A stretch of 43,489 nucleotides of DNA from a virus. This document shows, one piece after another, positions 2,660 through 22,703 of this stretch. Within the stretch, counting starts at the first letter, position 1, and the number at the start of each line of letters is the position of its first letter. The position numbers and the translations under genes are program-made. The notes beneath the pieces were generated by a model that did not search any database, was not told the DNA's origin, and worked only from the letters and a program-made list of their open reading frames with translations. The stretch lies in the IMG/VR virus record IMGVR_UViG_3300017956_000031, positions 1 through 43,489 of that record; one strand, 5' to 3'.

Positions 2660-3304
2660 ATGAAACTCATATGCGAAATAAACGAAGAGTTAGAATACCT
2701 TTCTGAAGATAATGGTGGTACAAAAAACCATTATATCAAAGGTGTGTTCATGCAGGGCAACCTAAAGAATAGGAATGGCCGTGTGTATCCCATGGAAGTG
2801 CTTCAGAAAGAGGTATCTAGGTATAATAAAGAATACATTGATCGCAAGCGAGCTTTTGGTGAACTTGGCCATCCAGCGGGTCCTACAATTAATCTCGATC
2901 GTGTCTCGCATATGATTCAAGAACTCAAGCAAGACGGTAACAACTTTGTTGGCAAGGCAAAGATAATGGATACCCCAATGGGTAACATTGTAAAGAATTT
3001 GATGAACGAGGGAGCCACCATTGGTGTTTCGTCACGAGGCATGGGTTCACTCAAAGAAAGAAATGGAACTGCAGAAGTACAAAATGATTTCTTCTTAGCT
3101 ACTGCAGCTGACATTGTTGCAGATCCTTCGGCACCTGATGCTTTCGTTGAAGGTATCATGGAAGGTAAAGAGTGGGTATGGGACAATGGAATTATTCGTG
3201 AAGCTACAATTGATGATTATAAAGAAGAAATAGAAAAGACCTCATCTAAAGATTTAACGGCCTCGAAGCTGAAGATTTTTGAGGACTTCATCTCAAAACT
3301 TTAA
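2660..3304 (+). CDS. gp21: prohead core protease gp21
   Basis: This 214-residue protein is the T4-type prohead protease, a serine protease with the herpesvirus-assemblin fold that cleaves scaffold, core and capsid proteins during head maturation. The N-terminal part has the family pattern KGVFMQG and NRNGRVYP. His71 in GELGHP and Ser124/Ser125 in IGVSSRG match the conserved His and Ser regions of the active site, and the following DIVADPSAPDAFVEG segment is also typical. Its place immediately before gp22 and gp23 is the T4 arrangement. Several other proteins in this window carry L-x-E|A-like sites that it could cut. Confidence 0.93.
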   Translation: MKLICEINEELEYLSEDNGGTKNHYIKGVFMQGNLKNRNGRVYPMEVLQKEVSRYNKEYIDRKRAFGELGHPAGPTINLDRVSHMIQELKQDGNNFVGKAKIMDTPMGNIVKNLMNEGATIGVSSRGMGSLKERNGTAEVQNDFFLATAADIVADPSAPDAFVEGIMEGKEWVWDNGIIREATIDDYKEEIEKTSSKDLTASKLKIFEDFISKL

Positions 3305-3307
3305 ATT

Positions 3308-3315
3308 TATAAATA
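3308..3315 (+). promoter_or_regulatory. late promoter TATAAATA upstream of gene 22
   Basis: An exact TATAAATA just after the gp21 stop and 35 bases before the gp22 start. A strong AAAGGAG ribosome binding site lies in between. Confidence 0.8.
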
Positions 3316-3350
3316 TTAAAGATAAAAAAAATCCATAAAGGAGAAATGCA

Positions 3351-4477
3351 ATGTCTGACAAAGAACTAGAGATGAAAGAAGATCTCACTGACGAGCAGTT
3401 GGATGAGTTCAAAGCATCTTATGGTGACCCATCGTCTGTGCCAGAGCCTGTTGCTAAAACGGCAAAAGCTCCTGGAAGTCTAAGAAAGCTGAAGATGATC
3501 CTGAGGATGCTCCTACTGCTGTTAAGCCTGAAGGTAAGGCTAAACCAGTTAAAGAAGCAACCAAAATGAGCATGATCCAAGCTATGGTTGAACGAATGAA
3601 TGGTATGAGGAAAGAAGATCTCATGAATTCATTTGACCGTGCCATTGACGCCTTGGATACTCAGGAAGAAATTAGCGAATCTGAAGAAGAAACTGTTGAA
3701 GTTGTTCGCGCTGGTCATAAAGTATCAGCTGAAGAAATCAACGTTGAAGAAGATGTCGCAGCATTGTTTGCTGGTGACGATAACCTTACTGAAGAATTTA
3801 AAGAAAAAGCAACAACTGTATTTGAAGCTGCTGTGGTAGCTAAAGTCAATGAACAACTTGAAAAATACGTTGTTGAGATCGATTCAGAGATCGAAGCTGA
3901 AAAAGCTAAATTGAAAGAAGCAACTGTAACACAGCTTGACCAGTATCTCGACTATGTCGTGGAAAACTGGATGGAAGAGAACAAGCTAGCTGTTGAAGCT
4001 GGTATCAAGTCTGATATTACAGAAAATTTTATTAATGGCCTTAAAGATCTGTTCACCGAACACTACATTGAAATCCCCGATGACAAGGTAGATGTTGTAG
4101 AAGAACTAGCTCTACGTGCCGACGAACTAGAAACCAAACTCAATGAAGAGATGGAAAAGAACGTCGCCATGAAGGCTGATATTGTAGAATTCGTGAAGGC
4201 TGAGCTCGTTGCTGAGGCTTCTGAATCTCTCACCGAAACTCAAAAAGAGAAGTTCAAAGAGTTAGCTGAGGGTGTTGATTTTATTGATGAGGACAATTAT
4301 GTCCGCAAGCTCGATACTCTGAAGGAATGTTATTTCAGCACTACTGATGAGTCAAAGACGGCTGTTAGTGATTTTGATGACTCGGAGCCATTAGAAGAAG
4401 AAGCTAAACCTTCCTTTTCAGGCAATCCGGAAATGTCGGCTTATGTCAGTACTATTTCAAGAACACTGAAAAAGTAA
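3351..4477 (+). CDS. gp22: prohead scaffold gp22, reading frame broken by an apparent 1-base deletion
   Basis: Gene 22 encodes the main scaffolding core protein around which the gp23 shell assembles; it is later destroyed by gp21. The ATG at 3351 has an excellent AAAGGAG site. The first frame encodes an acidic N-terminus (about 43 residues to APGS), then turns into nonsense ending at 3569. Sensible acidic, Lys/Glu-rich coiled-coil-like sequence continues in the -1 frame from about 3479 to 4477. Restoring one A in GGAAGTC near 3475-3479 would join the two as one protein of about 375 residues reading APGKSKKAE. An upstream stop at 3455 limits the second frame, so the break lies between about 3458 and 3480. 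The gene is essential in T4, so a sequencing error is more likely than a real mutation; a programmed shift is a weaker alternative. Confidence 0.8.
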
Positions 4478-4482
4478 TTAAT

Positions 4483-4490
4483 TATAAATA
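4483..4490 (+). promoter_or_regulatory. late promoter TATAAATA upstream of gene 23
   Basis: An exact TATAAATA, 31 bases before the major capsid gene start. It is followed by a strong AAAGGAG ribosome binding site. Confidence 0.85.
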
Positions 4491-4521
4491 ATACAGATCG
4501 AAACCGTAAAGGAGAGATAAA

Positions 4522-5922
4522 ATGCAATACGTATCTGAAGAACTAGTCGAGAAGTGGACACCAGTTCTTGAGCATGCCGATCTTCCCGAGATTAAAGATG
4601 CTCATCGCAAGTCTGTTACCGCTACTTTGCTAGAAAACCAGCAGCGTGCCTCACGTGAGGATGCTCAGGGTTCTGGTGGCTATCAAATGCCTAGCCTTTT
4701 GGGTGAAGCAAGCCCCACCAACGCCATGGGTACTTCCGCTGCACCTTCTACATCACCTGCTGGTAATGTAGATATCTTTGACCCAGTTCTTATTTCACTG
4801 GTTCGTCGTTCCATGCCTAACCTGATTGCTTATGACATCGCAGGTGTACAGCCAATGACTGGTCCCACTGGACTGATCTTTGCAATGCGTGCACGTTTCA
4901 ACAATCAGTCAGACACAGAAGCTCTTTACAACGAAGCTGATACTGACTTCTCGAAGTCAGCTGCTGGTAACACTCTTTCAGGCTTTGCCCGAGACGAGTC
5001 TACCGGTGATGGTGTAACTACTGGTCAGACTGGTACTGATCCCACAGCTCGTGTATCTGCTAACGGTTATACCGTTGCTACTGGTATGTCTACAGCTCAG
5101 GCTGAAGCCTTGGGTGATGCAGACAACAATGCATTCCAGCAGATGGCATTCTCAATTGAGAAAGTTTCTGTAACAGCTGTTTCACGTGCTCTGAAGGCTG
5201 AGTACACAATGGAACTTGCTCAGGACCTTAAAGCTGTTCACGGTCTTGATGCTGAAACCGAACTTTCCAATATCCTCTCAGCTGAGATCCTTGCGGAAAT
5301 CAACCGAGAAGTTGTTCGTACTATCAACTACACAGCTACTGCAGGTGCTCAAGACAATACTGCTTCAGCTGGTACCTTTAACCTTGACGTTGACTCAAAC
5401 GGCCGTTGGTCAGTTGAGCGCTTCAAAGGCATGATCTTCCAGATCGAGCGTGAAGCAAACCAGATCGCCAAGGACACAAGGCGTGGTAAGGGTAACATCC
5501 TGATCTGTTCTTCTGACGTAGCTTCCGCTCTTCAGATGTCAGGTGTTCTGGATTACACCCCTGCTTTGTCTACTAATCTTAACGTAGATGACACTGGCAA
5601 CACTTTTGCAGGTGTATTGAACGGTCGTATCCGAGTATACATCGATCCTTACTTCTCAAGTGCTTCCGGTAACCAGTACATGACTGTAGGTTACAAAGGC
5701 TCTAGCGCATTTGATGCTGGTCTTTTCTACTGTCCTTATGTACCTCTGCAAATGGTTCGTGCGGTTGGAGAGAACACCTTCCAGCCTAAGATTGGCTTCA
5801 AGACTCGTTACGGTATGGTCGCCAATCCATTTGCTAAGGGTGGTTCAGCTGGTAACGGTTCTATCTCTTTCGCAGATAAGAACGTATACTACAGATTGGT
5901 TACAGTATCCAACCTGATGTAA
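4522..5922 (+). CDS. gp23: major capsid protein gp23
   Basis: A 466-residue T4-type major capsid protein that forms the hexamers of the head (521 residues in T4). The N-terminal region is a removable propeptide. A gp21-type site LLGE|A at residues 59-63 would leave a mature protein starting ASPTN. The segment FDPVLISLVRRSMPNLIAYD followed by GVQPMTGPTGLIFAMR is the hallmark of marine gp23 sequences. The GC-leaning third codon positions (many CGT, CTG, ATC) suggest selection for high expression. The gene sits between a late promoter and a strong intrinsic terminator, giving it its own transcription unit. Confidence 0.96.
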   Translation: MQYVSEELVEKWTPVLEHADLPEIKDAHRKSVTATLLENQQRASREDAQGSGGYQMPSLLGEASPTNAMGTSAAPSTSPAGNVDIFDPVLISLVRRSMPNLIAYDIAGVQPMTGPTGLIFAMRARFNNQSDTEALYNEADTDFSKSAAGNTLSGFARDESTGDGVTTGQTGTDPTARVSANGYTVATGMSTAQAEALGDADNNAFQQMAFSIEKVSVTAVSRALKAEYTMELAQDLKAVHGLDAETELSNILSAEILAEINREVVRTINYTATAGAQDNTASAGTFNLDVDSNGRWSVERFKGMIFQIEREANQIAKDTRRGKGNILICSSDVASALQMSGVLDYTPALSTNLNVDDTGNTFAGVLNGRIRVYIDPYFSSASGNQYMTVGYKGSSAFDAGLFYCPYVPLQMVRAVGENTFQPKIGFKTRYGMVANPFAKGGSAGNGSISFADKNVYYRLVTVSNLM

Positions 5923-5950
5923 TAAAAAGAATCCCAAAAGGGACATTTTT

Positions 5951-5977
5951 AAAGGGCTCTTCGGAGCCCTTTTTTTA
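5951..5977 (+). terminator. rho-independent terminator after gene 23
   Basis: A perfect 9-bp stem (AAAGGGCTC / GAGCCCTTT) closes a stable TTCG tetraloop and runs into a T-tract. It lies 28 bases after the gp23 stop codon and ahead of the next late promoter. Confidence 0.93.
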
Positions 5978-5981
5978 TCTC

Positions 5982-5989
5982 TATAAATA
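5982..5989 (+). promoter_or_regulatory. late promoter TATAAATA upstream of the gp3-like gene
   Basis: An exact TATAAATA directly after the gp23 terminator and 17 bases before the start at 6007. The resulting leader is very short and contains an AGAGAGG ribosome binding site. Confidence 0.8.
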
Positions 5990-6006
5990 GTAGAGAGGTA
6001 TACACT

Positions 6007-6531
6007 ATGAGCACAATAAAAGACCAACCATCAAATTTAAATTTGATGTCCCCTACAGGTTTTAGGTTTGTCTTAAACAGAACACCAGGTATCAATTATT
6101 TTACATACAGTGCTCCACTACCTACCTTGTCGTTAGGTGACTATGATGTTCAAGACCCGTTTGTAGCACTACCGTATCCAGGTGATAAGTTAAGATATGA
6201 GCCTTTGAGTCTTAGATTCAGGGTTGATGAAGATCTTACAAACTATTTGGAAATTCACAATTGGCTCGTGTCGTTGGGTTACCCCGAGTCTTTTGATCAA
6301 TCTGCTTATCAAAACAACTCTTCAGCTTTTAAATCTGGAGATGTTTATTCAGATGGTTCTTTGATTATTTTATCAAGCCACCACAATCCTAATTTGAGAA
6401 TTAACTTTGAGGATATGTTTCCTATATCACTAACAGAGTTGAATTTTGATGCTTCGTTAAACGATATTCAATATCTCGAAGCTACTGTTGCATTCAGATA
6501 TAAAATATACACAATTGATAAGTTTGATTAG
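6007..6531 (+). CDS. gp3: gp3-like tail completion / tail-tube-fold protein
   Basis: This 174-residue protein matches T4 gp3 in length (176), and gene 3 follows gene 23 in many marine T4-like phages. The sequence has the look of tail-tube-fold proteins: a FRFVLNRTPGINYFTYSAPLP strand region, then PGDKLRYEPLSLRFRVDED and LEIHNWLVSLGYPE. gp3 caps the tail tube and stabilises the sheath before head joining. An alternative within the same fold is a gp54- or gp19-type tube protein, but the size and location favour gp3. It is expressed from its own late promoter, apart from the recombination genes that follow. Confidence 0.65.
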   Translation: MSTIKDQPSNLNLMSPTGFRFVLNRTPGINYFTYSAPLPTLSLGDYDVQDPFVALPYPGDKLRYEPLSLRFRVDEDLTNYLEIHNWLVSLGYPESFDQSAYQNNSSAFKSGDVYSDGSLIILSSHHNPNLRINFEDMFPISLTELNFDASLNDIQYLEATVAFRYKIYTIDKFD

Positions 6532-6543
6532 TTTAAATACCCA

Positions 6544-10506: not shown

Positions 10507-11118
10507 ATGCAAGTAGAATACACACCGATATCTGAGGAGGCATTGCTCTGTGCAGAACTCCCGATTGATAACAACCGACTTTACAACGAATGTTGTCATA
10601 TTAAAGACACACATGAAGGAGTAGTACATTCCAACGTAGGTGGTTATCAAAGCCCTGGTTTGTTCAGAGAAACAGTGACTGACTATCCTGTTCTTTGTGA
10701 ACTCATTGATAGTATTCAAAATATAATTGATACATATGTGAACAAGTTTACATATCAATCACCAAGAAGAGTGAAGATAGGTAACTTTTGGTTAAACTTT
10801 AATGATCAATACAACACCAATGATTATCATACACATCCGCATAGTGTGTTTTCAGGTGCTTACTATATAAAGGCTTCACCAAATGCAGGAACCATCAACT
10901 TTCATAGGACGCACTTAATTGCTGATACTGAATGGGGTTATTTCTTTGATGGCTCTTCTGCTCATAAAGAATTAATCAATATGTATTCTCATCGAATAGA
11001 ACCATCTCCTGGAAGACTAGTTTTATTTCCAAGCTACTACCCTCACAGTGTATCACCCAACATGAGCGGAGATATGAGGTTAAGTCTGTCTTTCAATTCT
11101 CAGGCAGTTTTCTCATAA
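10507..11118 (+). CDS. 2OG-Fe(II) oxygenase of the phage/cyanobacterial type (2OG-FeII_Oxy_5-like)
   Basis: A 203-residue protein with the pattern of a common marine-phage oxygenase family. There is a conserved NFWLNFND strand, HTHPHSVFSGAYYI (residues 108-121, iron-binding region), then GRLVLFPSYYPHSVSP with distal His180 and MRLSLSFN with Arg191, a candidate 2-oxoglutarate anchor. It sits exactly between gp47 and gp46, two bases after the gp47 stop and overlapping the gp46 start (TAATG), so it is cotranslated with the recombination nuclease. The substrate is unknown. It differs from the PKHD-type oxygenase at 22107 and the HxD enzyme at 1072. Confidence 0.8.
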   Translation: MQVEYTPISEEALLCAELPIDNNRLYNECCHIKDTHEGVVHSNVGGYQSPGLFRETVTDYPVLCELIDSIQNIIDTYVNKFTYQSPRRVKIGNFWLNFNDQYNTNDYHTHPHSVFSGAYYIKASPNAGTINFHRTHLIADTEWGYFFDGSSAHKELINMYSHRIEPSPGRLVLFPSYYPHSVSPNMSGDMRLSLSFNSQAVFS

Positions 11119-12838
11119 TGATTATCTTTAAATATATAAGATGGAAGAATTTTCTATCTACGGGTAATACGTGGACAGAAGTAAACTTGCATAAAAATAA
11201 ATCTTCGCTCATAGTTGGTGAAAACGGGGCGGGTAAGTCTACTATTCTCGATGCTTTGTCGTATTCGTTATATGCAAAACCATTTCGAAAAATTAACAAG
11301 AATCAGTTGATTAATAGCATTAATGGTAAAGGTGCTGAAGTTGAGGTTGAGTTTAGTATAGCTAACAACAACTACAAAATAATCCGAGGAATAAAAAAAT
11401 ACGGTTCACCTAAGTTTGAAGTTTATAGAAATGATGAGCTTATAAATCAAGACGCCTCAGCTCGAGATTATCAGGACGTGGTTGAAAAAAATATACTGAA
11501 GCTCAATCACAAATCTTTCAGTCAGATTGTTGTTCTAGGTAGCAGTACGTTCGTTCCCTTCATGCAACTATCATCACAACACAGACGAGAAGTGATTGAA
11601 GATTTGCTTGACATACAGATATTTTCAACAATGAACACGTTGCTGAAAGAGAAAGCGGCCGCGAACAAAAATAAATTAATGGATATTGATTATGCTATCA
11701 ATTTAGCTGAAGAAAAAATATCTATGCAAGAAAATTACATTTCTCAGTTAAAACAGAATAACGAAAAAAGAATTAATGACGGTAAGATAAAAATAGCTAA
11801 AGCTGAAAAAGAGAAAAAAACATATTCAAATCAAATAGTTACATTGCAAGAAAATATTAGCAGTTACAGAATGACAAAGCAGACATAGACAAAATAAAAA
11901 CCAAGAAGAAAAAGCTCGAGCAATTCGAATATAAAATGCAAGATAAAATATCTAAATTGTCTCAAGAGATAACATTCTACGGTGACCACGATGATTGCCC
12001 TACATGTAAGCAAAATATAGACGAAGATTTCAAATGTGACATTATAGAAAAAAAACAAAAGGTGCTTAATGAAACTAATGATGGTTTTGCACAGCTTAAA
12101 GAAGAGTATGAAAAAGTAGAAAGCAGACTTGTTACTATACAAGGTATCATAGATCAGATAAACGATTTACAGGCCGACATTACATCACACAACTCACAAA
12201 TAAATGCATTGAATCAATTGATTGATTCTATTAACGAAGATATTCAATCACTTAATGTACCAAAGCAATCAAATGCTGAAACTGATAAGCTGAAAGAACT
12301 TACTAAAGAACTCAAATCTAATCACGAAGAAAAGGAGACGTTGACAAACGACAAAAGCGTTCTCGACGTTGCTTCATTAATTCTAAAAGACAGTGGAATT
12401 AAAACAAGAATCATAAAGCAGTATGTTCCAATCATGAACAAGTTGGTAAACAAATATCTAGCTTCTATGGATTTCTTTGTTCAGTTCGAACTTGATGAAA
12501 ATTTTAACGAGACAATCAAGTCAAGATATAGGGACGAGTTTAGTTATGCTTCCTTTTCTGAAGGAGAAAAAATGCGTATCGATTTAGCTCTTCTTTTTAC
12601 TTGGCGCGCCATTGCTAAGTTAAGGAACAGTGCAAGTACCAATCTGTTGATTATGGATGAAGTGTTTGATTCATCGTTAGATACAACTGGAACCGAAGAG
12701 TTCTTGAAGATTCTAAATGACTTGACTTCTGACGCAAACATCTTTATAATATCCCATAAAGGTGACCAATTGATGGACAAGTTCCATAACACTATACGTT
12801 TTGAGAAAGTGAAGAACTTTAGTAGGATAGCAGCATGA
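11118..12838 (+). CDS. gp46: recombination ATPase gp46 (Rad50/SMC-like), frame broken by an apparent 1-base deletion
   Basis: gp46 is the ATPase partner of gp47. The first frame (11118-11888) carries the N-terminal region with Walker A GENGAGKST. The second part, in the -1 frame to 12838, has the zinc-hook CPTCKQ in the coiled coil, the ABC signature FSEGEKMRIDL, and Walker B LLIMDEVFD. Restoring one A in ACAGAATGAC near 11868-11872 would join the frames across the first coiled-coil arm and give about 573 residues, close to T4 gp46 (560). Every ATPase motif is intact on either side, so the break is most likely a sequencing error in a short A run, as in gene 22. The stop overlaps the deformylase start by four bases (ATGA). 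Confidence 0.88.
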
Positions 12839-13371
12839 TTTATGATCTTGTAAAATCCGATGATAAGATACTGAGAGATAGTGGATTACGATTTGATTTT
12901 GAAAATCCTCCTGCTGATCCAGTTGAGTTAGCCACAAACTTGAAAGAATCAATGATAGCCCATAGAGGCCTCGGATTGTCTGCTTGTCAAGTTGGACTAC
13001 CTTGGAGAGTATTTGTTGCTGGGGACCCCAACGATCCTGATAACATCAAAGTGTTCTTCAATCCCAATATTGTTTCAACGTCAGAAAATATAGTTTTAAT
13101 GGAGGAAGGTTGTCTCTCCTATCCTGGACTTTTTATAAAAGTGAAACGGCCTGACTCAATAAGAATACGGTATGCTGGTTCTAATGGTAATATAACTACC
13201 GATGTGTTTGATGGCATACCTGCCAGAGTAATACAACATGAGTACGATCATATGGACGGTATTGTATTTAAGAATCGTTCTACTAAATTTCATTACGAGC
13301 AAGCTGTGAGACAAAAGAAAAGATTAGATAAGAAGAGGAAACTCAATGAGCAAAGGGTACGCGTTCTCTGA
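12835..13371 (+). CDS. def: peptide deformylase
   Basis: This 178-residue enzyme removes the N-formyl group from new proteins. All three motifs are present: GLGLSACQ (45-52, motif 1), EGCLS (91-95, with metal ligand Cys93) and HEYDH (135-139, with two His ligands and the catalytic Glu). Phage-encoded deformylases are frequent in marine T4-like phages and are thought to sustain protein maturation late in infection. The C-terminus is basic and overlaps queE by 26 bases. A role linked to the formyltransferase-like gene further downstream is conceivable but speculative, since deformylases act on peptides. Confidence 0.94.
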   Translation: MIYDLVKSDDKILRDSGLRFDFENPPADPVELATNLKESMIAHRGLGLSACQVGLPWRVFVAGDPNDPDNIKVFFNPNIVSTSENIVLMEEGCLSYPGLFIKVKRPDSIRIRYAGSNGNITTDVFDGIPARVIQHEYDHMDGIVFKNRSTKFHYEQAVRQKKRLDKKRKLNEQRVRVL

Positions 13372-14290
13372 AACGTTTTATTCAGTACAAGGTGAAGGTT
13401 TTTATACCGGAGTCCCATCAGTGTGGCTTCGGTTTTTTCTTTGCAATTTACAGTGCGATGGCTTTGGTCAAGAAGATCCGACTAACCCAGAAACGTATGA
13501 ATTACCTTACAAAGATTTTGATCCTATAGATGTAAAGAACGTCACTGATCTTCCTGTGTGGGAGAAAGGCTGTGATAGCTCGTACTCATGGTCGAAGAAG
13601 TTCAAGCATCTTCAAAAGAAGCAGACACCAGAAGAGATTGTTGAAACTCTTAGACGTGAAATGGTCAATGCGTATAACCCAGATGGGGATTTCAATCATC
13701 CTGTTTCACGGGCATCGGTACATCTTGTTTACACGGGTGGGGAGTCGTTGATGAAACATGCACAAGAAGCAGCTGTAGAGATTAACGCTGTGTATAAGAC
13801 CAAAGGAAATCATGAACGACCATGGCACACAACTTGGGAAACAAACGGTACGCAACCATTGACTGAACAGTTCATCAGGACATTTGGTAACAGAGGTCTA
13901 TATGGTGGTGAGCTGTTCTTCTCTTGTAGCCCTAAGTTGTTTACTGTATCAGGAGAAAAACCTAAGAAAGCAATACGTCCAGATATTGTTTCACAATACA
14001 ATGACCTTGGCATGACAGTGCGGGAAAGGTCAACAACATCAAGGGCCCCTGCCGGGCAGCTAAAGTTTGTTCTAGGTCCTAAGCCAGAGCAATGGGAAGA
14101 GCTTGACGAGGTGGTTCATCAATTTAGACAAGCGGGTGTAGACTGGCCTGTATGGATCATGCCTGTTGGTGCTACTGTAGAAGGTCAAAAGTTAGTTGAT
14201 GGTGATGTTGCTAACATGGCTCAAGAGAGAGGGTTTAATGTATCTGCAAGAGTGCATACCTATCTCTGGGGCAATGTGATTGGAGTATAA
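13346..14290 (+). CDS. queE: 7-carboxy-7-deazaguanine synthase QueE with an inserted loop in the cluster motif
   Basis: A radical SAM enzyme converting 6-carboxytetrahydropterin to 7-carboxy-7-deazaguanine, the third step to preQ0. The N-terminus has the QueE hallmark ETFYSVQGEGFYTGVPSVWLR. The three likely 4Fe-4S cysteines are Cys33, Cys37 and Cys76, where Cys76 lies in CDSSYSW, equivalent to the usual CDTxYTW. In most family members these form CxxxCxxC, so about 36 extra residues separate the second and third cysteines here. The YTGGE motif binds SAM. At 314 residues the protein is longer than typical QueE (about 200-250). The gene overlaps def, and queD follows after one base. Insertions in this loop are known in the family, so activity is plausible. 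Confidence 0.9.
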   Translation: MSKGYAFSETFYSVQGEGFYTGVPSVWLRFFLCNLQCDGFGQEDPTNPETYELPYKDFDPIDVKNVTDLPVWEKGCDSSYSWSKKFKHLQKKQTPEEIVETLRREMVNAYNPDGDFNHPVSRASVHLVYTGGESLMKHAQEAAVEINAVYKTKGNHERPWHTTWETNGTQPLTEQFIRTFGNRGLYGGELFFSCSPKLFTVSGEKPKKAIRPDIVSQYNDLGMTVRERSTTSRAPAGQLKFVLGPKPEQWEELDEVVHQFRQAGVDWPVWIMPVGATVEGQKLVDGDVANMAQERGFNVSARVHTYLWGNVIGV

Positions 14291-14291
14291 T

Positions 14292-14858
14292 ATGAAACTA
14301 AAATGTACAAAGTCTTATTACAATTTACCTGTAGCACATATGCAGTGGTTTGATACTGATGAGACAAGAGAACCACTAACAGGGCCCTGTTCTAAATGGC
14401 ATGGTTATGATAGATCGGTTCATTTTGAATTCGCTGGTGAAGCAGATGAACACGGGTGGATTGTTGGCTTTGGTGACTTGAAGCCTCTAAAGCAATTTTT
14501 AGAATACTACTTTGATCATACAGCTCTAGCAGGAGCTGATGATCCGAGACTAGATAAGATATACGAAGCGTATACTAATGGTCTCGTTGATCTTAGAGTC
14601 CTGCCTTACGGTGTTTCTATGGAAATGAGTGCTGTATTTATTTGGGAACAAGTTAACCCTTGGATCTATATGATTACAGATGGACGTTCTTATGTATCAA
14701 GAGTTGAATGTCGCGAGCATGAAAAAAATTCTGCTTTCATTGAAATAGAAGAAAAGATCGCTCGAAAGCAAGGTAAAAACTCAGAGCAACTTCTCACTAT
14801 GAGACCTAATTGGAATGAGTTTGTACCGCCGCGTGATATACTTAAAAAGTATAGCTAG
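14292..14858 (+). CDS. queD: QueD-like 6-carboxytetrahydropterin synthase with divergent zinc site
   Basis: A 188-residue member of the 6-pyruvoyl-tetrahydropterin synthase fold, expected to convert 7,8-dihydroneopterin triphosphate into 6-carboxytetrahydropterin. The start at 14292 is chosen because GGAG lies just upstream and QueE stops at 14290. Recognisable elements are His16 (PVAHMQW, first zinc ligand), Cys33 (GPCSKWHG, catalytic cysteine position), His37, GWIVGFGDLK (usually GWxxDFxxLK) and FDHTAL. The usual HGH is HGY here, so one of three zinc His ligands is replaced by Tyr39. It is also longer than typical QueD (about 120). The assignment rests on this pattern plus direct adjacency to queE. 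A zinc site completed by another residue, or an altered reaction, is possible. Confidence 0.78.
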   Translation: MKLKCTKSYYNLPVAHMQWFDTDETREPLTGPCSKWHGYDRSVHFEFAGEADEHGWIVGFGDLKPLKQFLEYYFDHTALAGADDPRLDKIYEAYTNGLVDLRVLPYGVSMEMSAVFIWEQVNPWIYMITDGRSYVSRVECREHEKNSAFIEIEEKIARKQGKNSEQLLTMRPNWNEFVPPRDILKKYS

Positions 14859-15225: not shown

Positions 15226-15909
15226 ATGATTTCTAAAGTGATTAAGAAACGTATTGACGATGCTAATGCTCGCTACTGGGCCGGTGATAATGTCTCTGAA
15301 TTCATCTATGATGAAAAAGAGAAACAATTACTTATAGATGAAGCTACAGAAAAGTTTGAAGCTGTTTTAGATTCATTGCTTATCGATAGACACAATGATC
15401 CTAACTCACAAGGTACAGGTCGACGTCTAGCGAAGATGTACATCAATGAAATTATGTCTGGTCGGTATAACCCTCGACCTACAGCAACCGCTTTTCCGAA
15501 TGATTCAGAAGATCGCTATGCAGGAATGCTTGTAGTACGATCTGAACTTAAGTCTATGTGTTCACATCATCACCAACCAGTAGCCGGTGTAGCGTATATT
15601 GGTATCATTCCAAGTAATAAAGTTATCGGTCTATCCAAGTATACTCGTATAGCTCAATGGTGTGCCCGTCGTGGTACGCTACAAGAAGAGCTTTGTAATG
15701 ATATTGCTCGTGAGATAATGCAAGCTACGGAAAGCGAGAATGTTGCAGTTTATATCCAAGCTACTCATGGTTGTTGTGAGAATAGAGGTATTAGTGCTCA
15801 TAGTTCTTTAACTCAAACGACAGTACTTAACGGGGAATTTAATGACCCAGGGGTCAAGAAAGAGTTTTTTGATAATATTAAGCTACAGCAGGAATTTGCA
15901 CCGAGATGA
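15226..15909 (+). CDS. folE: GTP cyclohydrolase I (FolE)
   Basis: A 227-residue enzyme opening GTP to 7,8-dihydroneopterin triphosphate, the first step of both folate and 7-deazaguanine synthesis. Family signatures are complete: the zinc ligand region MCSHHHQP (Cys112, His114, His115), YIGIIPSNKVIGLSKYTRI, and ATHGCCENRGI with the second zinc cysteine at 183/184. With queD, queE, queC and queF in the same window, its job is almost certainly to feed preQ0/preQ1 production. A GTP cyclohydrolase could also supply folate for the formyl donor of the nearby formyltransferase. The stop overlaps the dpdA start (ATGA). Confidence 0.95.
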   Translation: MISKVIKKRIDDANARYWAGDNVSEFIYDEKEKQLLIDEATEKFEAVLDSLLIDRHNDPNSQGTGRRLAKMYINEIMSGRYNPRPTATAFPNDSEDRYAGMLVVRSELKSMCSHHHQPVAGVAYIGIIPSNKVIGLSKYTRIAQWCARRGTLQEELCNDIAREIMQATESENVAVYIQATHGCCENRGISAHSSLTQTTVLNGEFNDPGVKKEFFDNIKLQQEFAPR

Positions 15910-16703
15910 GAATAGCTCACGAAGCCCCGTTAAGTATTATTAGAGAAGTACAAAAGGTAACAGACTACGATTATGCTCTTGTGCATTTATTTGACGAGAG
16001 TGAAGAGTATTATAACTTTTTTAAAGAAGCAGTATCAAAAGGAAGATACGTTATTTTAGATAATAGTATTTTTGAGCTTGGTACTGCGTTCGATATGAGT
16101 AAATTTGCAAGCTATGTAAATAAACTCAAGCCTTCAGCATACATTATTCCTGATGCTTTAGAAGACAAAGATAAAACTATCGCTAACTTTGAGCTTTGGA
16201 TGAAAAACTACGGTGATCTTCCAGGTAAAAAGATAGGTGTGGTGCAAGGTAAGACGTATGAAGAAGTCGTAGAATGTTATAACTACATAAAAGAGTATGC
16301 TGATGTTATTGCTATCTCTTTCGACTATAACTTCTATGAAAAACAATTTCCAAATGAAAAGACTAAGTACCATTCTTGGATGCTAGGCAGGCAAGATATG
16401 TTATGGAATATGCTTCAAGGTGGAATTATAGATAAGACAAAACCACATCACTTACTAGGTGCTGGTTTACCTCAAGAATTTGCCATATATAGACACTGGG
16501 ACTGGATCGATACTATCGATACTTCTAACCCTGTTGTTCATGGTATGAAAGGTATTAGATATCTACCACTTGACTTTGGTCTGCACGGTTTAGAAGACAA
16601 AGAGTCAACTAAATTATTTACTTTATTAGACGAACAAGTGTATAACATGGACGATATATTCTATAATATACGTATGTTTAAAATGAATTTAATGGTCGCG
16701 TAA
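15906..16703 (+). CDS. dpdA: DpdA-like DNA guanine transglycosylase
   Basis: A 265-residue protein with the layout of the tRNA-guanine transglycosylase/DpdA superfamily, which swaps a guanine base for a 7-deazaguanine. Asp52 in ILDNSIFELG matches the first catalytic Asp region. VVQGK (Gln114) matches the substrate-binding VQGG segment. LLGAGLPQEF (184-192) corresponds to LMGVGxPxD, and Asp205 in IDTSNPVVHG aligns with the nucleophile Asp of TGT. No zinc-binding CxCxxC is present, unlike tRNA TGTs, and the protein is short, as in viral DpdAs. It lies between folE and a formyltransferase-like gene, overlapping both. That context supports DNA rather than tRNA as substrate, but only experiment can decide. 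The DpdA subfamily cannot be settled from this sequence alone. Confidence 0.85.
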   Translation: MRIAHEAPLSIIREVQKVTDYDYALVHLFDESEEYYNFFKEAVSKGRYVILDNSIFELGTAFDMSKFASYVNKLKPSAYIIPDALEDKDKTIANFELWMKNYGDLPGKKIGVVQGKTYEEVVECYNYIKEYADVIAISFDYNFYEKQFPNEKTKYHSWMLGRQDMLWNMLQGGIIDKTKPHHLLGAGLPQEFAIYRHWDWIDTIDTSNPVVHGMKGIRYLPLDFGLHGLEDKESTKLFTLLDEQVYNMDDIFYNIRMFKMNLMVA

Positions 16704-17206
16704 TGTGGATTGCTTTATTTTCCAACAGTGGTAGTGAAATAGCTGCTATAGTAAAAAAGCTAGGTAAGAAGCCGGATATCATCTATTGTGATAAGAGACG
16801 TGTTGATTGGCACGACGATATAAAAAACGAAACGTTTCTAAGTAATCATAATAATATTGTAAAAATGTTAAGTATCGTGCCTAATAAAGTTTTAGTAACC
16901 TTGCACGGTTACCTTAGATTAATTCCAGAGCACGCTATATGTAAGCAAATGTATAATGTGCATCCTGGAGATATTGTAAAGCATCCTGAACTAAAAGGGA
17001 TACATCCTCAAGCTAAAGCATTAGAGCTTGGATTATCTTCGACAGGGGTTGTCATTCACCGAGTTATTCCAGAAATGGATAGTGGTGAGATTGTTTCATC
17101 AGCAGAATACACTATCAAAGATGGTGAGACTGAGACGGATTTGATTAATAATTTAAGAGATCTATCTATTAATCTTTGGTGTGATTTTTTGCGAGATAAA
17201 GTATGA
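16703..17206 (+). CDS. PurN-fold formyltransferase, candidate dPreQ1 formyltransferase (DpdN-like)
   Basis: A 167-residue protein of the 10-formyltetrahydrofolate-dependent formyltransferase family. The catalytic triad can be read: Asn85 and His87 in YNVHPG, and Asp126 in PEMDSGEIV. LHGYLRLIP resembles the folate-binding loop upstream, and GIHPQAKALELG matches the PurN segment HxxAxxxG. It is shorter than PurN (about 210) and lacks a clear GAR-binding N-terminal loop. It is coupled to dpdA (TAATG) and followed by queF, the source of preQ1. A predicted dPreQ1 formyltransferase named DpdN has been reported for phages with 7-(formylamino)methyl-7-deazaguanine DNA; this gene fits that role. The alternative is a formyltransferase for a sugar or nucleotide. 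Confidence 0.75.
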   Translation: MWIALFSNSGSEIAAIVKKLGKKPDIIYCDKRRVDWHDDIKNETFLSNHNNIVKMLSIVPNKVLVTLHGYLRLIPEHAICKQMYNVHPGDIVKHPELKGIHPQAKALELGLSSTGVVIHRVIPEMDSGEIVSSAEYTIKDGETETDLINNLRDLSINLWCDFLRDKV

Positions 17207-17466
17207 CAGACGAAATTGAAGAAACTGGTGATGCAAGGCCTGATCATTATAGTCAGAAAGAAGGTTCTATAGAATGTATTGCTGCTATTGAGCAGCTATG
17301 TGATGAGCATCAGAACGACCCGTTTACTGACTATAATCGTTTTCAAGCGTTCAAGTATTTATGGCGTCTTGGTAAGAAAGACGATGTACTGTATGAACTG
17401 TATAAAGCAAGACAATTCTTAGACTTTGCTATTGATAAATTAGAAAGAGACCGAGGTATTAAATGA
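17203..17466 (+). CDS. DUF3310 family protein
   Basis: An 87-residue protein with the DUF3310 pattern: RPDHYSQKEGSIECIAAIE, then FQAFKYLWRLGKKDD and KARQFLDFAID. The family is common in phages and its biochemical role is not established; it is sometimes labelled as a nucleotide-kinase-like protein. It overlaps the genes on both sides by four bases (ATGA), so it belongs to the modification operon. Co-location with nucleotide genes such as mazG is typical. Confidence 0.85.
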   Translation: MTDEIEETGDARPDHYSQKEGSIECIAAIEQLCDEHQNDPFTDYNRFQAFKYLWRLGKKDDVLYELYKARQFLDFAIDKLERDRGIK

Positions 17467-18380
17467 GTGAAATTGAAAATATTGCGAGTAAGCATTTAGG
17501 TAAAGCTGGTGACGGGTCTGTAGTAAAGCCTTATATTACTCCTGATAATGTGGATGCATCTTTGCTTGTTGGTGTACCTCGTCATCTTAATCGTACTGCA
17601 TATGATATTGATGATAACGATCTTCCGTTTGTCGGTGTAGATGCTTGGAACGGATATGAATTTTCCACTCTTCTTACGAATGGCTTTCCTGTATCTGGCT
17701 GGGTAAAGTTTACCTATCCATCTGACACCCCTAATATTGTTGAGAGTAAATCTGTAAAATTATATCTTAACTCTTATAATATGGCTCGTCTAATTGAAAC
17801 CACTGATGATGTTTATATTATAGAAGATAAAATATCTAACGATTTGTCTAAAGCAGTTGGTGGTGTTGTTGAAGTTTTTATTCAGAGGGGCGATATTGAT
17901 ACTGTTAAACCTATTATTGGTGACTTTACCTCGCTAGAGCATTATTGTAACATACAGAATATGTCGTTCGACAACTATAATGAAAGTGCTGATATTTTAG
18001 AAGTAGTTCCTTCTATTGGTAGATACGAACGTTGGAGATCTTACTCATTACGTTCTAACTGCCGAGTAACTAATCAGCCTGACTGGGGTGATGTATATAT
18101 TCACATTAAAGGTGAAAACTCTGTTACACCAGAATCATTACTTAAGTATATCGTATCAATGCGAAAAGAGAATCATTTCCATGAGGAAATTTGTGAATGT
18201 ATTTACAAGCGCTTGTACGACTTATTAGATCCTGAAGAATTATTTGTATCGTGTCTATATACCAGACGTGGCGGGGTAGATATTAATCCTACTCGTGCAA
18301 CTGATGATAATACACTTTACAAGTATGGTGGTGGTATAGTAGATGTGATGAACTTCTGTACCAAAACTGCAAGACAATAG
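17463..18380 (+). CDS. queF: NADPH-dependent preQ0 reductase QueF
   Basis: A 305-residue bimodular QueF (E. coli type, about 280 residues) that reduces the nitrile of preQ0 to the aminomethyl group of preQ1 with NADPH. The QueF motif ESKSVKLYLNSYN lies at 94-106. The catalytic Cys200 in LRSNCRVTNQPDWG and Asp207 are present, as are NHFHE (238-241 region) and the C-terminal YTRRGGVDINPTR. All key residues are intact, so this is a true reductase and not an amidinotransferase-type QueF-like protein. The phage should therefore insert preQ1 or a derivative of it into DNA. The gene ends the coupled run that starts at folE. Confidence 0.95.
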   Translation: MSEIENIASKHLGKAGDGSVVKPYITPDNVDASLLVGVPRHLNRTAYDIDDNDLPFVGVDAWNGYEFSTLLTNGFPVSGWVKFTYPSDTPNIVESKSVKLYLNSYNMARLIETTDDVYIIEDKISNDLSKAVGGVVEVFIQRGDIDTVKPIIGDFTSLEHYCNIQNMSFDNYNESADILEVVPSIGRYERWRSYSLRSNCRVTNQPDWGDVYIHIKGENSVTPESLLKYIVSMRKENHFHEEICECIYKRLYDLLDPEELFVSCLYTRRGGVDINPTRATDDNTLYKYGGGIVDVMNFCTKTARQ

Positions 18381-18443
18381 TGGTTTATGAAAGCTAACCA
18401 CTTTAAAGATCACACTGCTTTCTATATAAAGGTGTTAAAATGA
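18379..18443 (+). promoter_or_regulatory. hairpin and possible 18-residue leader ORF upstream of queC
   Basis: A 7-bp stem (AGTGGTT 18379-18385 / AACCACT 18396-18402) starts at the queF stop. An 18-codon ORF, from the ATG at 18387 inside the loop to a TGA at 18441-18443, overlaps the queC ATG at 18440. No good ribosome binding site precedes the leader ORF. The arrangement could couple or attenuate queC translation; it may also be chance. Confidence 0.3.
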
Positions 18444-19252
18444 AAAATATTGTTGTTTCTCTTTCCGGAGGTATGGACTCCTCAACTCTCTTACTACGCT
18501 GTATTAAAGAAGTAGGTGCAGAAAATGTAACTGCTATCTCTATGAACTACGGTCAAAAGCATGTATGTGAACTTGAGCGAGCTAGACAATTAGTTGATTA
18601 TTTGGCTACTAAAGGCCATAATATTACCTATCAAGTAATTAAGCTTGATGGTATTACTGAACTGCTTTCTTCTGCTTTGGTATCTGGTGGTGACGATGTA
18701 CCAGAAGGTCATTACGCAGAAGACAATATGAAGCAAACTGTAGTACCTAATCGCAATAAGATCTTTGCATCTATTGTACAAGCAGTGGCTCTATCTGTTG
18801 TTAAAAAGACAGATGAAGAAACTGCTATCGCTCTTGGCATTCACGCTGGTGACCATGCAATCTATCCTGATTGTCGTCAAGAGTTCCGTGATGCAGACGA
18901 TCAAGCATTCCGTATTGGTAACTGGGATGCAGAAAAAGTAACTTACTTTACTCCTTACTTGTATGGAGATAAGTTTGATATTCTTACAGATGGTACAGCT
19001 CTTTGTGTAGAGCTTGGTCTTGAGTTTGATGAAGTGTATAGCCGTACTAATACATCTTATAAACCTCTTCAGGTTAACGGTGTATGGTACTCAGACTATA
19101 AGAGTTCATCTTCAGTAGAACGTATTGAAGCGTTTATTAAACTTGGTCGTACAGACCCTGTTGCATATGCTGATGAAACTGGACCAGTACCTTATGATAT
19201 TGCACGACAGCATGCAGAGAAAGTGCTTGCTGAATATAATGAGGTTGCTTAA
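18440..19252 (+). CDS. queC: 7-cyano-7-deazaguanine synthase QueC lacking the zinc-binding cysteines
   Basis: A 270-residue ATP-dependent ligase family enzyme that turns 7-carboxy-7-deazaguanine into preQ0 with ammonia. The PP-loop SGGMDSS (9-15), VVPNRN (101-106), and GIHAGDHAIYPDCRQEF (133-149) are canonical. The C-terminal zinc site of normal QueC, a TxTCY cysteine followed by CGxCxxCxxR, is replaced: TNTSY (Ser206) and a stretch ending in SSSSVER, where Asp219, Ser222 and Ser225 sit at the cysteine positions. The surrounding fold is otherwise preserved, so a metal-free but active enzyme is likely. It follows queF after a 59-base gap and overlaps mazG by one base. Confidence 0.9.
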   Translation: MKNIVVSLSGGMDSSTLLLRCIKEVGAENVTAISMNYGQKHVCELERARQLVDYLATKGHNITYQVIKLDGITELLSSALVSGGDDVPEGHYAEDNMKQTVVPNRNKIFASIVQAVALSVVKKTDEETAIALGIHAGDHAIYPDCRQEFRDADDQAFRIGNWDAEKVTYFTPYLYGDKFDILTDGTALCVELGLEFDEVYSRTNTSYKPLQVNGVWYSDYKSSSSVERIEAFIKLGRTDPVAYADETGPVPYDIARQHAEKVLAEYNEVA

Positions 19253-19629
19253 TGAGCACAAATTTTGAGCGTATTAAGGAGTGGTCAGACGAACGTCTGA
19301 TCACTTTCCAGGAGCCAGATCGCAATGGCTTTCTTGCTATGATTGTAGAAGAGCTTGGAGAGTTTCTCGAAGCTAAAGATGATGACGGTCGTATTGATGC
19401 TATGGCTGATATTATCGTATTTGCTTATGGCGAGATAGCCAAGTATGGTTATCATGGTGATAAAGTCATGGATGAGGTAATCAAAGAGATTAACTCACGT
19501 GTTGGTGCGTATAGCCCTGAAACTAAGAAATGGCAGAAAGATAAGTCTCCTGAAGCTCAAGCTAAGTGGTATACAGCAGACTTTAGTAATTGTAAATTAG
19601 ATGATGGAGCTAAACATGGCCGGTGTTGA
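19252..19629 (+). CDS. mazG: MazG-like nucleoside triphosphate pyrophosphohydrolase
   Basis: A 125-residue all-alpha NTP pyrophosphatase. The metal-binding motif EELGEF (34-39) with a later DAMADI (49-54) gives the EExxE...D pattern of the MazG/HisE superfamily. Marine T4-like phages often carry such genes, with proposed roles in nucleotide pool control or hydrolysis of alarmone-like nucleotides. It is coupled to queC (TAATG), so it may also clear aberrant 7-deazapurine or pterin triphosphates; that is an inference. The C-terminal tail overlaps the next gene by 14 bases. Confidence 0.8.
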   Translation: MSTNFERIKEWSDERLITFQEPDRNGFLAMIVEELGEFLEAKDDDGRIDAMADIIVFAYGEIAKYGYHGDKVMDEVIKEINSRVGAYSPETKKWQKDKSPEAQAKWYTADFSNCKLDDGAKHGRC

Positions 19630-20473
19630 AATAAAAATTAATACTGAAGAACTTCAGAAGCGAAAGATCATGGTTGCTACACCTATGTACGGTGGTCAAT
19701 GCGCTGGTATCTATACTAAGTCATCAACTGACTTGGCACAGCTTGCTTTGAAGTATGGAGTCGATTGTCGATTTTATTATCTATTCAACGAGTCGTTGAT
19801 CACTCGAGCTCGTAACTATTTGGTTGATGAGTTTATGAGATCAGACTGTACTAATCTTATGTTTATTGATAGTGATATTGGTTTTGATCCAACTGATGTT
19901 TTAGCTCTTGCAGCTATCGCAGAACCTGGTTCAGACAAGCAAGTTGTTTGTGGCCCCTATCCTAAGAAAGCAATTGCTTGGGAAAAGATTAAGCGCGCTG
20001 TTGATAAAGGGTTTGCAGATGATGATCCCGGTCAGCTAGAAAGATACGTTGGTGATTATGTATTCAATCCTGCATCTGGTGGCAATGAGATTCGTCTCGA
20101 TCAACCTCAAGAAGTACTGGAGGGTGGTACAGGATTCATGATGATTCAACGTAGTGCTTTCGAAGCCTATGCTGAAGCGTATCCGGAGTTCTCCTATAAG
20201 CCTGATCATGTTCGTACAAAGGCATTTGATGGCTCACGTGAGATTATGGCTTACTTTGATTGTGTGATTGATGAAGAAACCAAACGGTATCTCTCTGAAG
20301 ATTATATGTTCTGCCAGTGGGCTCGCAAAGCTGGTATCAAAGTATGGATGTGTCCATGGATGAAACTTACTCACATGGGTTCGTATATGTTTGGTGGAAG
20401 CCTGATGGACCTTGCACAAGTTGGCGCTAGCGCTACCGTTGGTGGTGACTTCAAAGATAAAAGCAAGAAATAA
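19616..20473 (+). CDS. GT-A-type glycosyltransferase-like protein
   Basis: A 285-residue protein beginning MAGVEIKINTEELQ; the start at 19616 has GGAG seven bases upstream. KIMVATPMYGGQ, LITRARNYLVDEF, and FIDSDIGFDPTD with a DxD-type metal motif are typical of GT-A glycosyltransferases, and EGGTGFMMIQRSAF and EDYMFCQWARKAG match later conserved parts. The family is widespread in marine T4-like phages. The acceptor is unknown: DNA bases, a host surface sugar or a virion protein are all possible. Its place beside the DNA-modification genes makes base glycosylation worth testing. It ends shortly before gp45. Confidence 0.7.
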   Translation: MAGVEIKINTEELQKRKIMVATPMYGGQCAGIYTKSSTDLAQLALKYGVDCRFYYLFNESLITRARNYLVDEFMRSDCTNLMFIDSDIGFDPTDVLALAAIAEPGSDKQVVCGPYPKKAIAWEKIKRAVDKGFADDDPGQLERYVGDYVFNPASGGNEIRLDQPQEVLEGGTGFMMIQRSAFEAYAEAYPEFSYKPDHVRTKAFDGSREIMAYFDCVIDEETKRYLSEDYMFCQWARKAGIKVWMCPWMKLTHMGSYMFGGSLMDLAQVGASATVGGDFKDKSKK

Positions 20474-21171: not shown

Positions 21172-22107
21172 ATGTCAGAATTTTTATGGGTCGAGGCATA
21201 TCGACCTAAGAAAATCAGTGAATGTGTTTTACCAACTAATCTTAAAGTAGTCTTTCAAGAGTTTGTAAATAAGAAGAATATTCCAAACCTACTACTGACC
21301 GGGGGACCTGGGGTTGGAAAAACTACTGTAGCTCGCGCTATGCTTGAAGAAGTAAATGCGGACTATATAGTTATTAACGGTAGTATGAATGGTAATATTG
21401 ATACTCTGCGTAATGAGATTATGCAGTTTGCGTCTACAGTTTCCTTTACCGGTGGTCGCAAGTATGTTATACTAGACGAAGCCGACTACCTTAATCCTAA
21501 CTCTACTCAGCCTGCTCTTCGCAACTTTATGGAAGAGTTTAGCAACAACTGCGGCTTTATTCTTACTTGTAACTTTAAGAATCGTATCATCGACCCGTTG
21601 CACTCTCGATGCAGTGTCGTGGACTTTAATATTCCGAAAGATGAGAAGATGAAACTTGCTTCTCAATTCTTAAATCGTGTCAATGGTATTCTCGTTCATG
21701 AGGATGTAGACTTTGATAAGAAGGTAGTAGTAGAGCTTATTACAAAGCATTTTCCTGATTGGAGAAGAGTGCTAAATGAACTGCAACGCTATAGTGCTAC
21801 TGGCCAGATAGATTCTGGTATACTAGCCAATAACGGTGAAGCATCGATTGCTGAACTGATTAAACACCTCAAGGCTAAGTCGTTCACGGGAATGAGAAAG
21901 TGGGTTGCTTACAACTCTGATATAGACACAGCAACGTTATTTAGAAAGCTATATGACATATCTTCTACGGAGTTTAAGCAGAGGTCCATACCTCAGCTCG
22001 TTGTTTTGATGGCTGATTATCAACACAAAGCAGCGTTTGTTGCTGATCAAGAAATAAATAACGTAGCGTTTTTTACTGAAGTAATGTCTAGTTGTGAGTT
22101 TGAATAA
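21172..22107 (+). CDS. gp44: clamp loader ATPase gp44
   Basis: A 311-residue AAA+ ATPase (319 in T4), the large subunit of the loader that opens and places the gp45 ring. It has the N-terminal WVEAYRPKK motif, Walker A GGPGVGKT (44-51), Walker B LDEAD (101-105), and the SRC arginine-finger motif (145-147). All functional residues are present. An AGAAAGG ribosome binding site precedes the start. The stop overlaps the downstream oxygenase start by one base. Confidence 0.96.
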   Translation: MSEFLWVEAYRPKKISECVLPTNLKVVFQEFVNKKNIPNLLLTGGPGVGKTTVARAMLEEVNADYIVINGSMNGNIDTLRNEIMQFASTVSFTGGRKYVILDEADYLNPNSTQPALRNFMEEFSNNCGFILTCNFKNRIIDPLHSRCSVVDFNIPKDEKMKLASQFLNRVNGILVHEDVDFDKKVVVELITKHFPDWRRVLNELQRYSATGQIDSGILANNGEASIAELIKHLKAKSFTGMRKWVAYNSDIDTATLFRKLYDISSTEFKQRSIPQLVVLMADYQHKAAFVADQEINNVAFFTEVMSSCEFE

Positions 22108-22703
22108 TGTGGTTATTAAAACCTTTCGAAGACAGAACTGGTGCTTATGCTTTAAAGGCACTTAGTCTTTTTAACGATAATGATATAAACTGGCTCAATT
22201 GGTACGTTGAGAATCATTTAACAATAGAGCCAGGTAAAACTGGTAACTTGAACAACGAGGGAAATTTGTCATCAGGAAGGAAATCCGATGTATCGTGGCT
22301 TATGCCTACTGATGAGAACCTGCGTTTTTATTTCGAAAAAATAGCATATTGTATCAACAAAGCTAATACAGATTATTTTCAATTTAGTTTAACAGGTTTC
22401 CATGCTATTCAATATACTTTATACCATGAAACAGTAGAAGGTAAATATGATTGGCACATGGATACAGGAGATCTTTATACTACACAAAACATGGGTAGAA
22501 AATTATCTGCTGTTATAGCCCTCAATGATGATTTTGAGGGAGGGGTGTTTGAAACATTAGATAGCGATACACCTCGTTCCTACGATCTCCGTAAAGGAGA
22601 AATGTTGATGTTTCCTTCGTTTATGTTACATCGAGTAACGCCTGTTACCCGAGGGACTCGTAGATCGCTAGTTGTGTGGGTTGAAGGGCCTAATTTCAAA
22701 TGA
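22107..22703 (+). CDS. PKHD-type 2OG-Fe(II) oxygenase (prolyl hydroxylase-like)
   Basis: A 198-residue dioxygenase with a full motif set: His117 and Asp119 in YDWHMDTG, LSAVIALNDDFEGGVFET, distal His175 in MLHRVTP, and Arg185 in GTRRSLVVW as the 2-oxoglutarate anchor. It resembles the PiuC/PKHD hydroxylase family. The gene is inserted between gp44 and gp62, overlapping both by one to four bases, so it is cotranslated with the clamp loader. The substrate is unknown; a replisome or ribosomal protein residue is possible. It is the third 2OG enzyme of the window. Confidence 0.88.
   Translation: MWLLKPFEDRTGAYALKALSLFNDNDINWLNWYVENHLTIEPGKTGNLNNEGNLSSGRKSDVSWLMPTDENLRFYFEKIAYCINKANTDYFQFSLTGFHAIQYTLYHETVEGKYDWHMDTGDLYTTQNMGRKLSAVIALNDDFEGGVFETLDSDTPRSYDLRKGEMLMFPSFMLHRVTPVTRGTRRSLVVWVEGPNFK

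Follow-up and report, generated by a model that had tools for sequence, protein, structure and literature searches.

A predicted dPreQ1 formyltransferase of the DpdN type in the 7-deazaguanine operon of a T4-like marine phage

Some phages exchange guanines in their DNA for 7-deazaguanine derivatives, and the operons concerned may encode further enzymes that tailor the inserted base. Here, the question is which amine is the acceptor of a small formyltransferase-like protein encoded directly behind dpdA, the gene for a DNA-guanine transglycosylase, in the virus record IMGVR_UViG_3300017956_000031. The stretch analysed (the window) comprises positions 1 to 43,489 of this record, to which all window coordinates refer; it is a T4-like phage fragment with genes for a gp23-type head, UvsX, DNA polymerase and a sliding clamp. 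A first-pass annotation had proposed that the protein formylates dPreQ1. On the basis of sequence comparison and structural modelling, we consider it a probable DpdN orthologue (probability about 0.77), that is, a folate-dependent N-formyltransferase that would formylate the preQ1 amine to yield fdPreQ1 in phage DNA. The gene, its fold, the catalytic residues, the separate clade, the evolutionary constraint and the gene linkage are established here.

Gene neighbourhood in the window

The dpdN-like open reading frame starts with ATG and encodes 167 aa followed by a stop codon (Table 1). It takes third place in a five-gene run, folE-dpdA-dpdN-DUF3310-queF, in which neighbours overlap by one to four bases. 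An ATGA at 15906-15909, read directly from the sequence, joins folE and dpdA, a TAATG joins dpdA and dpdN with base 16703 common to both, and further ATGA overlaps are found at the dpdN/DUF3310 (17203-17206) and DUF3310/queF (17463-17466) junctions. The genes queE and queD lie upstream of the overlapping run and queC downstream. The proposed position of the gene between dpdA and queF with overlapping codons is, hence, correct with respect to dpdA, which it overlaps by one base, but queF does not abut it, as the DUF3310 gene intervenes. A promoter scan returned promoter-like sites not above the count in shuffles, and a terminator scan no terminator-like site. Compared with relatives of 72-90% identity, the dpdN-like gene is under purifying selection, with a dN/dS of 0.11-0.16.

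Table 1. Features of the 7-deazaguanine gene cluster in the window
Feature	Coordinates	Strand	Basis or remarks
queE (radical-SAM CDG synthase family)	13346..14290	+	phrog_2076 E 2.6e-47
queD (6-carboxytetrahydropterin synthase family)	14280..14858	+	
folE (GTP cyclohydrolase I, entry step into 7-deazaguanine synthesis)	15226..15909	+	
dpdA, DNA-guanine transglycosylase, 265 aa	15906..16703	+	phrog_19058 E 5.7e-53
dpdN-like gene, predicted 167-aa N-formyltransferase	16703..17206	+	PF00551, profiles, alignment, model, tree
dpdN-like protein, residues			N85, H87, D126; E12; P95-E-L-K-G99 insert; P102-Q103; W2; W159
DUF3310 protein, 87 aa	17203..17466	+	matches phage families labelled 'nucleotide kinase'
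queF, bimodular, 305 aa, predicted preQ0 to preQ1 reductase	17463..18380	+	TIGR03138 E 9e-68
queC (preQ0 synthase)	18440..19252	+	

Several other genes of this region were noted. A peptide deformylase gene (12835-13371) lies directly upstream of queE and overlaps it, and its homologue recurs at this place in many dpdN loci. Two proteins of the 2OG-Fe(II) oxygenase family are encoded near the cluster (10507-11118 and 22107-22703), and farther downstream, behind queC and a MazG-like gene, a phrog_1574 protein of unknown function (19601-20473) shows a weak glycosyltransferase-family match. The window QueE has an apparent insertion inside its radical-SAM cysteine motif, which reads C-x3-C with the third Cys about 40 residues on, in KGCDSSYSW; QueE of Flavobacterium phage immuto has a shorter version of this insertion.

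Co-occurrence with dpdA and queF

Searching viral contigs and bacterial genome contigs with formyltransferase queries alone yielded 107 non-redundant loci, with dpdA present in 98 and queF in 96 of them. Five of the nine loci devoid of dpdA are cut at the contig start and two (L031 and L047) are short contigs; in L032, dpdA is found farther away in the record, and in L156 it is truly missing. Locus L040 has no queF in place but carries the gene elsewhere in its record. QueF is missing in L153 (a 40-kb fragment), L157 (a MAG) and L156 (a Microcoleus MAG that lacks DpdA, too), implying that preQ1 is host-derived in these cases or that the acceptor differs.

A DpdA-first survey was based on the best matches to the window DpdA, with Campylobacter phages added by a separate search and more than 4 kb required on both sides. 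Among its 35 distinct loci, which are biased to near relatives because the survey was limited to the best DpdA matches, 31 carried both DpdN and QueF, three (the Campylobacter phages) neither of them, one QueF without DpdN, and none DpdN without QueF. Loci L244 and L304 have kept dpdA, the kinase gene described below and queF while dpdN is absent; DpdN is, therefore, optional, as expected for a late tailoring enzyme.

The two partner enzymes carry the motifs of their families. The window DpdA is 55% identical to the annotated DpdA of immuto, and its TGT-type Asp motifs (D205 in DTSNP, D52-N-S and D83) are invariant in 12 of 12 sequences. The window QueF contains the active-site motifs SNC..T.QPDW and FHEE; in the linked QueF set, the former is present in 130 and F(H/R)E in 137 of 138 sequences. 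Phage QueF homologues have been reported together with dPreQ1 in phage DNA (PMC6884629). With 228.8 bits against TIGR03138, the window protein stays below the cut-off of 293.45 and is, by its sequence, a divergent phage form of QueF.

The Campylobacter phages CP220 and CPt10 possess a DpdA (phrog_19058) that is about 42% identical to that of the window and is followed by a kinase of the AAA_28 family known from the dpdN loci; unlike in the window, neither DpdN nor QueF is encoded beside it, and DpdN was not found in the whole CP220 record. The modified base dADG lacks a preQ1-type amine. Campylobacter phages of the CP220-type DpdA group are reported to carry dADG (PMC6884629). In three close relatives of the window phage (L006, 5126-5995; L007; L014), a second, divergent dpdA copy of about 40% identity is located between dpdA and dpdN.

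Of the 107 dpdN loci, 103 encode an AAA_28 P-loop kinase, a DUF3310 protein or, rarely, both (kinase only, 66; DUF3310 only, 33; both, four; neither, four); the phrog label is 'thymidylate kinase' for the former and 'nucleotide kinase' for the latter. Usually, the gene stands between dpdN and queF (e.g., L001, 10519-11043; L024, 5905-6435), and in loci with both, DUF3310 is placed beyond queF; in the window, DUF3310 occupies the slot held by the AAA_28 kinase in most relatives. Since the kinase is also found behind dpdA in CP220, L244 and L304, all of which are devoid of dpdN, it travels with dpdA and not with dpdN. In 26 of the 107 loci (e.g., L001, 6881-7276), a PRTase relative of immuto gp211 is encoded close to the cluster; as a guess, PRTase and kinase might serve guanine salvage after base exchange.

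Formyltransferase domain and the DpdN clade

The window protein matches Formyl_trans_N (PF00551) with an E-value of 2.2e-13 and 50.8 bits, so far over the cut-off of 26.1 that chance can be dismissed. The PurN-type triad named in the first-pass annotation, Asn85, His87 and Asp126, is present and aligns to the N-x-H...D of PurN and Fmt; it is invariant in 51 of 51 relatives and 34 of 34 PurN, while Fmt has N and H in 14 of 14 and D in 13 of 14 sequences (one gap). The shortness pointed out there was confirmed, too, with 167 aa compared with 184-229 aa for the PurN chains among the PDB matches. An AlphaFold2 model built on the alignment of 51 relatives reached a pLDDT of 96.6 and a pTM of 0.90. 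In VIA-align 2, the top structures were PurN/GAR transformylases (4s1n, Z 19.8, rmsd 2.2 over 162 residues; GAR-bound 5j9f, Z 19.7); Fmt, PurU and sugar enzymes followed with Z values of 17-18.6. Since the predicted fold covers the entire catalytic domain, the short length is due to trimmed loops and a trimmed C-terminus; judging from the model, the protein is a complete catalytic formyltransferase domain and not a partial one.

A set of residues distinguishes the DpdN-like proteins. Glu12 is found in 50 of 51 members, including that of the window, at a position where 33 of 34 PurN have Asn, and His68 in 48 of 51, where PurN has Ala throughout (34 of 34). A three-residue insert (96-98) lengthens the loop that follows the catalytic His and is absent in 33 of 34 PurN and 14 of 14 Fmt, and W2, T66, P102-Q103 and W159 are invariant in the DpdN-like set. 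Arg72 of the window protein takes the position of the pterin-side Arg of PurN. In E. coli PurN, the loop Gly11-Ser12-Asn13, part of the motif G-x-G-S-N, binds the GAR phosphate, and the acidic Glu12 in this loop argues against GAR as the acceptor; by analogy to TGT and QueF, Glu12 could instead contact a deazaguanine base at its N1/N2 edge. Three members (L050, 5995-6903; L069, 2200-3129; L113, 2331-3242) are extended at the C-terminus by about 120-130 aa, a stretch that matched no Pfam family even at an E-value of 10 and only phrog_1485 (unknown function); a likeness to the Nmad1 domain (nucleotide-modification-associated) seen by eye has no Pfam match behind it, and Nmad1/DUF1599 identity is not claimed.

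An unrooted maximum-likelihood tree (LG+C20+F+G4) was calculated from 99 proteins, the set being confined to DpdN-like (51), PurN (31), cyanophage PurN (three) and Fmt (14) sequences. All 51 DpdN-like proteins, including those of the window and of immuto (gp204), form one side of a branch supported by UFBoot/SH-aLRT values of 100/100, apart from PurN and Fmt. Two wastewater records labelled as Listeria/Enterococcus phage (L230, OR846843.1; L231, OR846666.1) encode ordinary bacterial-type PurN and look like bacterial contigs; a quick tree placed both proteins with bacterial PurN, the PurN cut-off is exceeded by L230, and neither was accepted as a DpdN member.

Regarding published enzymes, Cui et al. 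2023 (Nucleic Acids Res. 51:9214) reportedly named DpdN as a predicted dPreQ1 formyltransferase and reported fdPreQ1; a full-text literature search with these two names brought up no article dealing with them. The published DpdN reportedly shares with the window protein the formyltransferase fold and the occurrence in a phage with DpdA and QueF. Flavobacterium phage immuto displays the order folE..dpdA..formyltransferase..kinase-queF; its formyltransferase, gp204, bears just the annotation 'PRGA formyltransferase'. Across the 50,697 phage records searched (tblastn, E <= 1e-3), the clade was met in no named phage besides immuto, from which we infer that gp204 is the DpdN described by Cui et al. 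in 2023; the phylogeny, which had been suggested as a check, places the window protein together with gp204. The two proteins are about 40-44% identical, the window protein being without an N-terminal extension; moreover, the window belongs to a T4-like marine phage and, unlike immuto, has DUF3310 instead of the AAA_28 kinase after dpdN.

Thus, the enzyme family had already been predicted by others, and the window protein is, by sequence and model, very probably a new and unusually well-supported member. A prediction that, as regards deposited phages, seemingly rested on one genus now covers at least 107 non-redundant loci, which share a signature (E12, PELKGxxPQ, W2, W159) and a constant gene order and for which a confident model is available; the existence of loci with and without dpdN makes formylation of the free base versus that of DNA directly testable.

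Proposed function and choice of acceptor

The formyl donor, the acceptor, the order of steps and the benefit to the phage are what we infer from the above data. In the proposed pathway, FolE, QueD, QueE and QueC would furnish preQ0, QueF would reduce it to preQ1, and DpdA would swap guanines in finished DNA for the deazaguanine. The predicted DpdN would use its N-H-D triad to formylate preQ1 at the primary aminomethyl amine, with 10-formyl-tetrahydrofolate as the donor; this would most likely take place after preQ1 has entered the DNA and would give 2'-deoxy-7-(formylamino)methyl-7-deazaguanine (fdPreQ1). This cap would cancel the positive charge that dPreQ1 would put on each modified guanine and add bulk in the major groove, and it should alter how host restriction enzymes read the DNA; the charge removal is, therefore, relevant to how phage DNA can stay functional and unreadable to these enzymes when many of its bases are substituted.

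Other identities of the protein have to be weighed against this proposal, most obviously that of a shortened PurN which formylates GAR to raise purine synthesis in host or phage, as in cyanophages. PurN is its nearest fold and nearest curated model, sharing the fold over all 167 residues, the triad and Arg72, and PurN genes are indeed carried by T4-like cyanophages. Those cyanophage enzymes (phrog_9240; S-SKS1, P-SSM2 and P-SSM7; 174-191 aa) pass the PurN cut-off where tested and fall outside the DpdN clade, and neither dpdA nor queF occurs within 4 kb of their genes. Against TIGR00639 (cut-off 150.1), cyanophage controls of nearly equal length scored 190.0 and 185.8 bits and all controls 185.8-207.0, compared with 42.4 bits for the window protein, which departs from PurN also in Glu12, His68, the insert and the trimmed C-terminus, and whose gene is linked with dpdA and queF, not with purine genes. 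In addition, MAGs bearing a DpdN-like gene also encode their own PurN. Plain PurN identity is ruled out by profile score, tree and motif, and GAR formylation by a shortened version is highly improbable. Fmt shares fold and triad as well, but the match to TIGR00460 is weak (38.2 bits over residues 47-164; cut-off 201.5), the Fmt C-terminal domain is missing and the clade is another one, which rules out this identity. The grouping with host PurN or Fmt that would speak against a DpdN was thus looked for in tree and profiles, and a separate clade far below the curated cut-offs was found. A sugar-nucleotide formyltransferase (ArnA, VioF or dTDP-sugar type) acting, e.g., on a glycosylated base might be suggested by weak matches to ArnA and dTDP-sugar formyltransferases and by the phrog_1574 protein; given 24.2 bits for ArnA (cut-off 777) and 21.3 bits for NF005755 (cut-off 238), an operon free of sugar-nucleotide genes, and DUF3310, QueF and QueC as downstream partners, such an activity is as improbable as GAR formylation.

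More relevant is the nature of the amine. Its source could be the adjoining kinase or DUF3310 protein, the true acceptor then being an amine-bearing nucleotide and the linkage to preQ1 indirect. The near-constant presence of such a gene would fit, as would the Microcoleus homologue, which has no dpdA and whose neighbours include a TMP-kinase-like protein, an aminotransferase and a PRTase; yet the idea is weakened by the persistence of the same kinase family behind dpdA in the Campylobacter phages, L244 and L304, where dpdN is missing, and we regard it as improbable. If preQ1 is the acceptor, the same chemistry might take place on the free base, with DpdA inserting formyl-preQ1 and the end product being identical. 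The predicted DpdN is a bare catalytic domain with no nucleic-acid-binding part, which keeps free preQ1 in play, and the Glu12 carboxylate in place of the PurN Asn could hold the N1/N2 edge of the deazaguanine; however, a flipped-out DNA base would suit the same pocket, and the DpdA of L244, 65% identical to that of the window, works without DpdN, so that formyl-preQ1 is not needed by this group. Free-base formylation is, hence, possible but rather doubtful. Since DpdA relatives work in loci devoid of DpdN (L244, L304), a DpdN that acts last and on DNA is mildly favoured, and given preQ1 chemistry, we hold the DNA-level reaction to be the likelier course. Net charge was uninformative as a test for DNA binding, because the DNA-binding DpdA is more acidic than DpdN (-10 versus a median of -3).

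A combination of several of these elements is also conceivable, though unlikely: DpdN would be a stand-alone free-base enzyme, the kinase or DUF3310 protein together with the PRTase would constitute a guanine-salvage arm recycling the guanine released by near-complete exchange, and the Microcoleus homologue would be a relative that now serves another amine-formylating pathway, encoded next to a restriction-modification system.

This DpdN-like protein of a Microcoleus MAG (L156; contig JAHREW010000012.1) comes from a genome in which no match to DpdA or QueF was found. Its gene belongs to a cluster (2752-6537) with genes for a radical SAM protein, a TMP-kinase-like protein, a DegT aminotransferase and a PRTase, the cluster adjoins genes for a XamI-type restriction endonuclease and an Eco57I-type methylase, and a homologue of this type occurs in one of 194 genomes sampled from the Microcoleus phylum.
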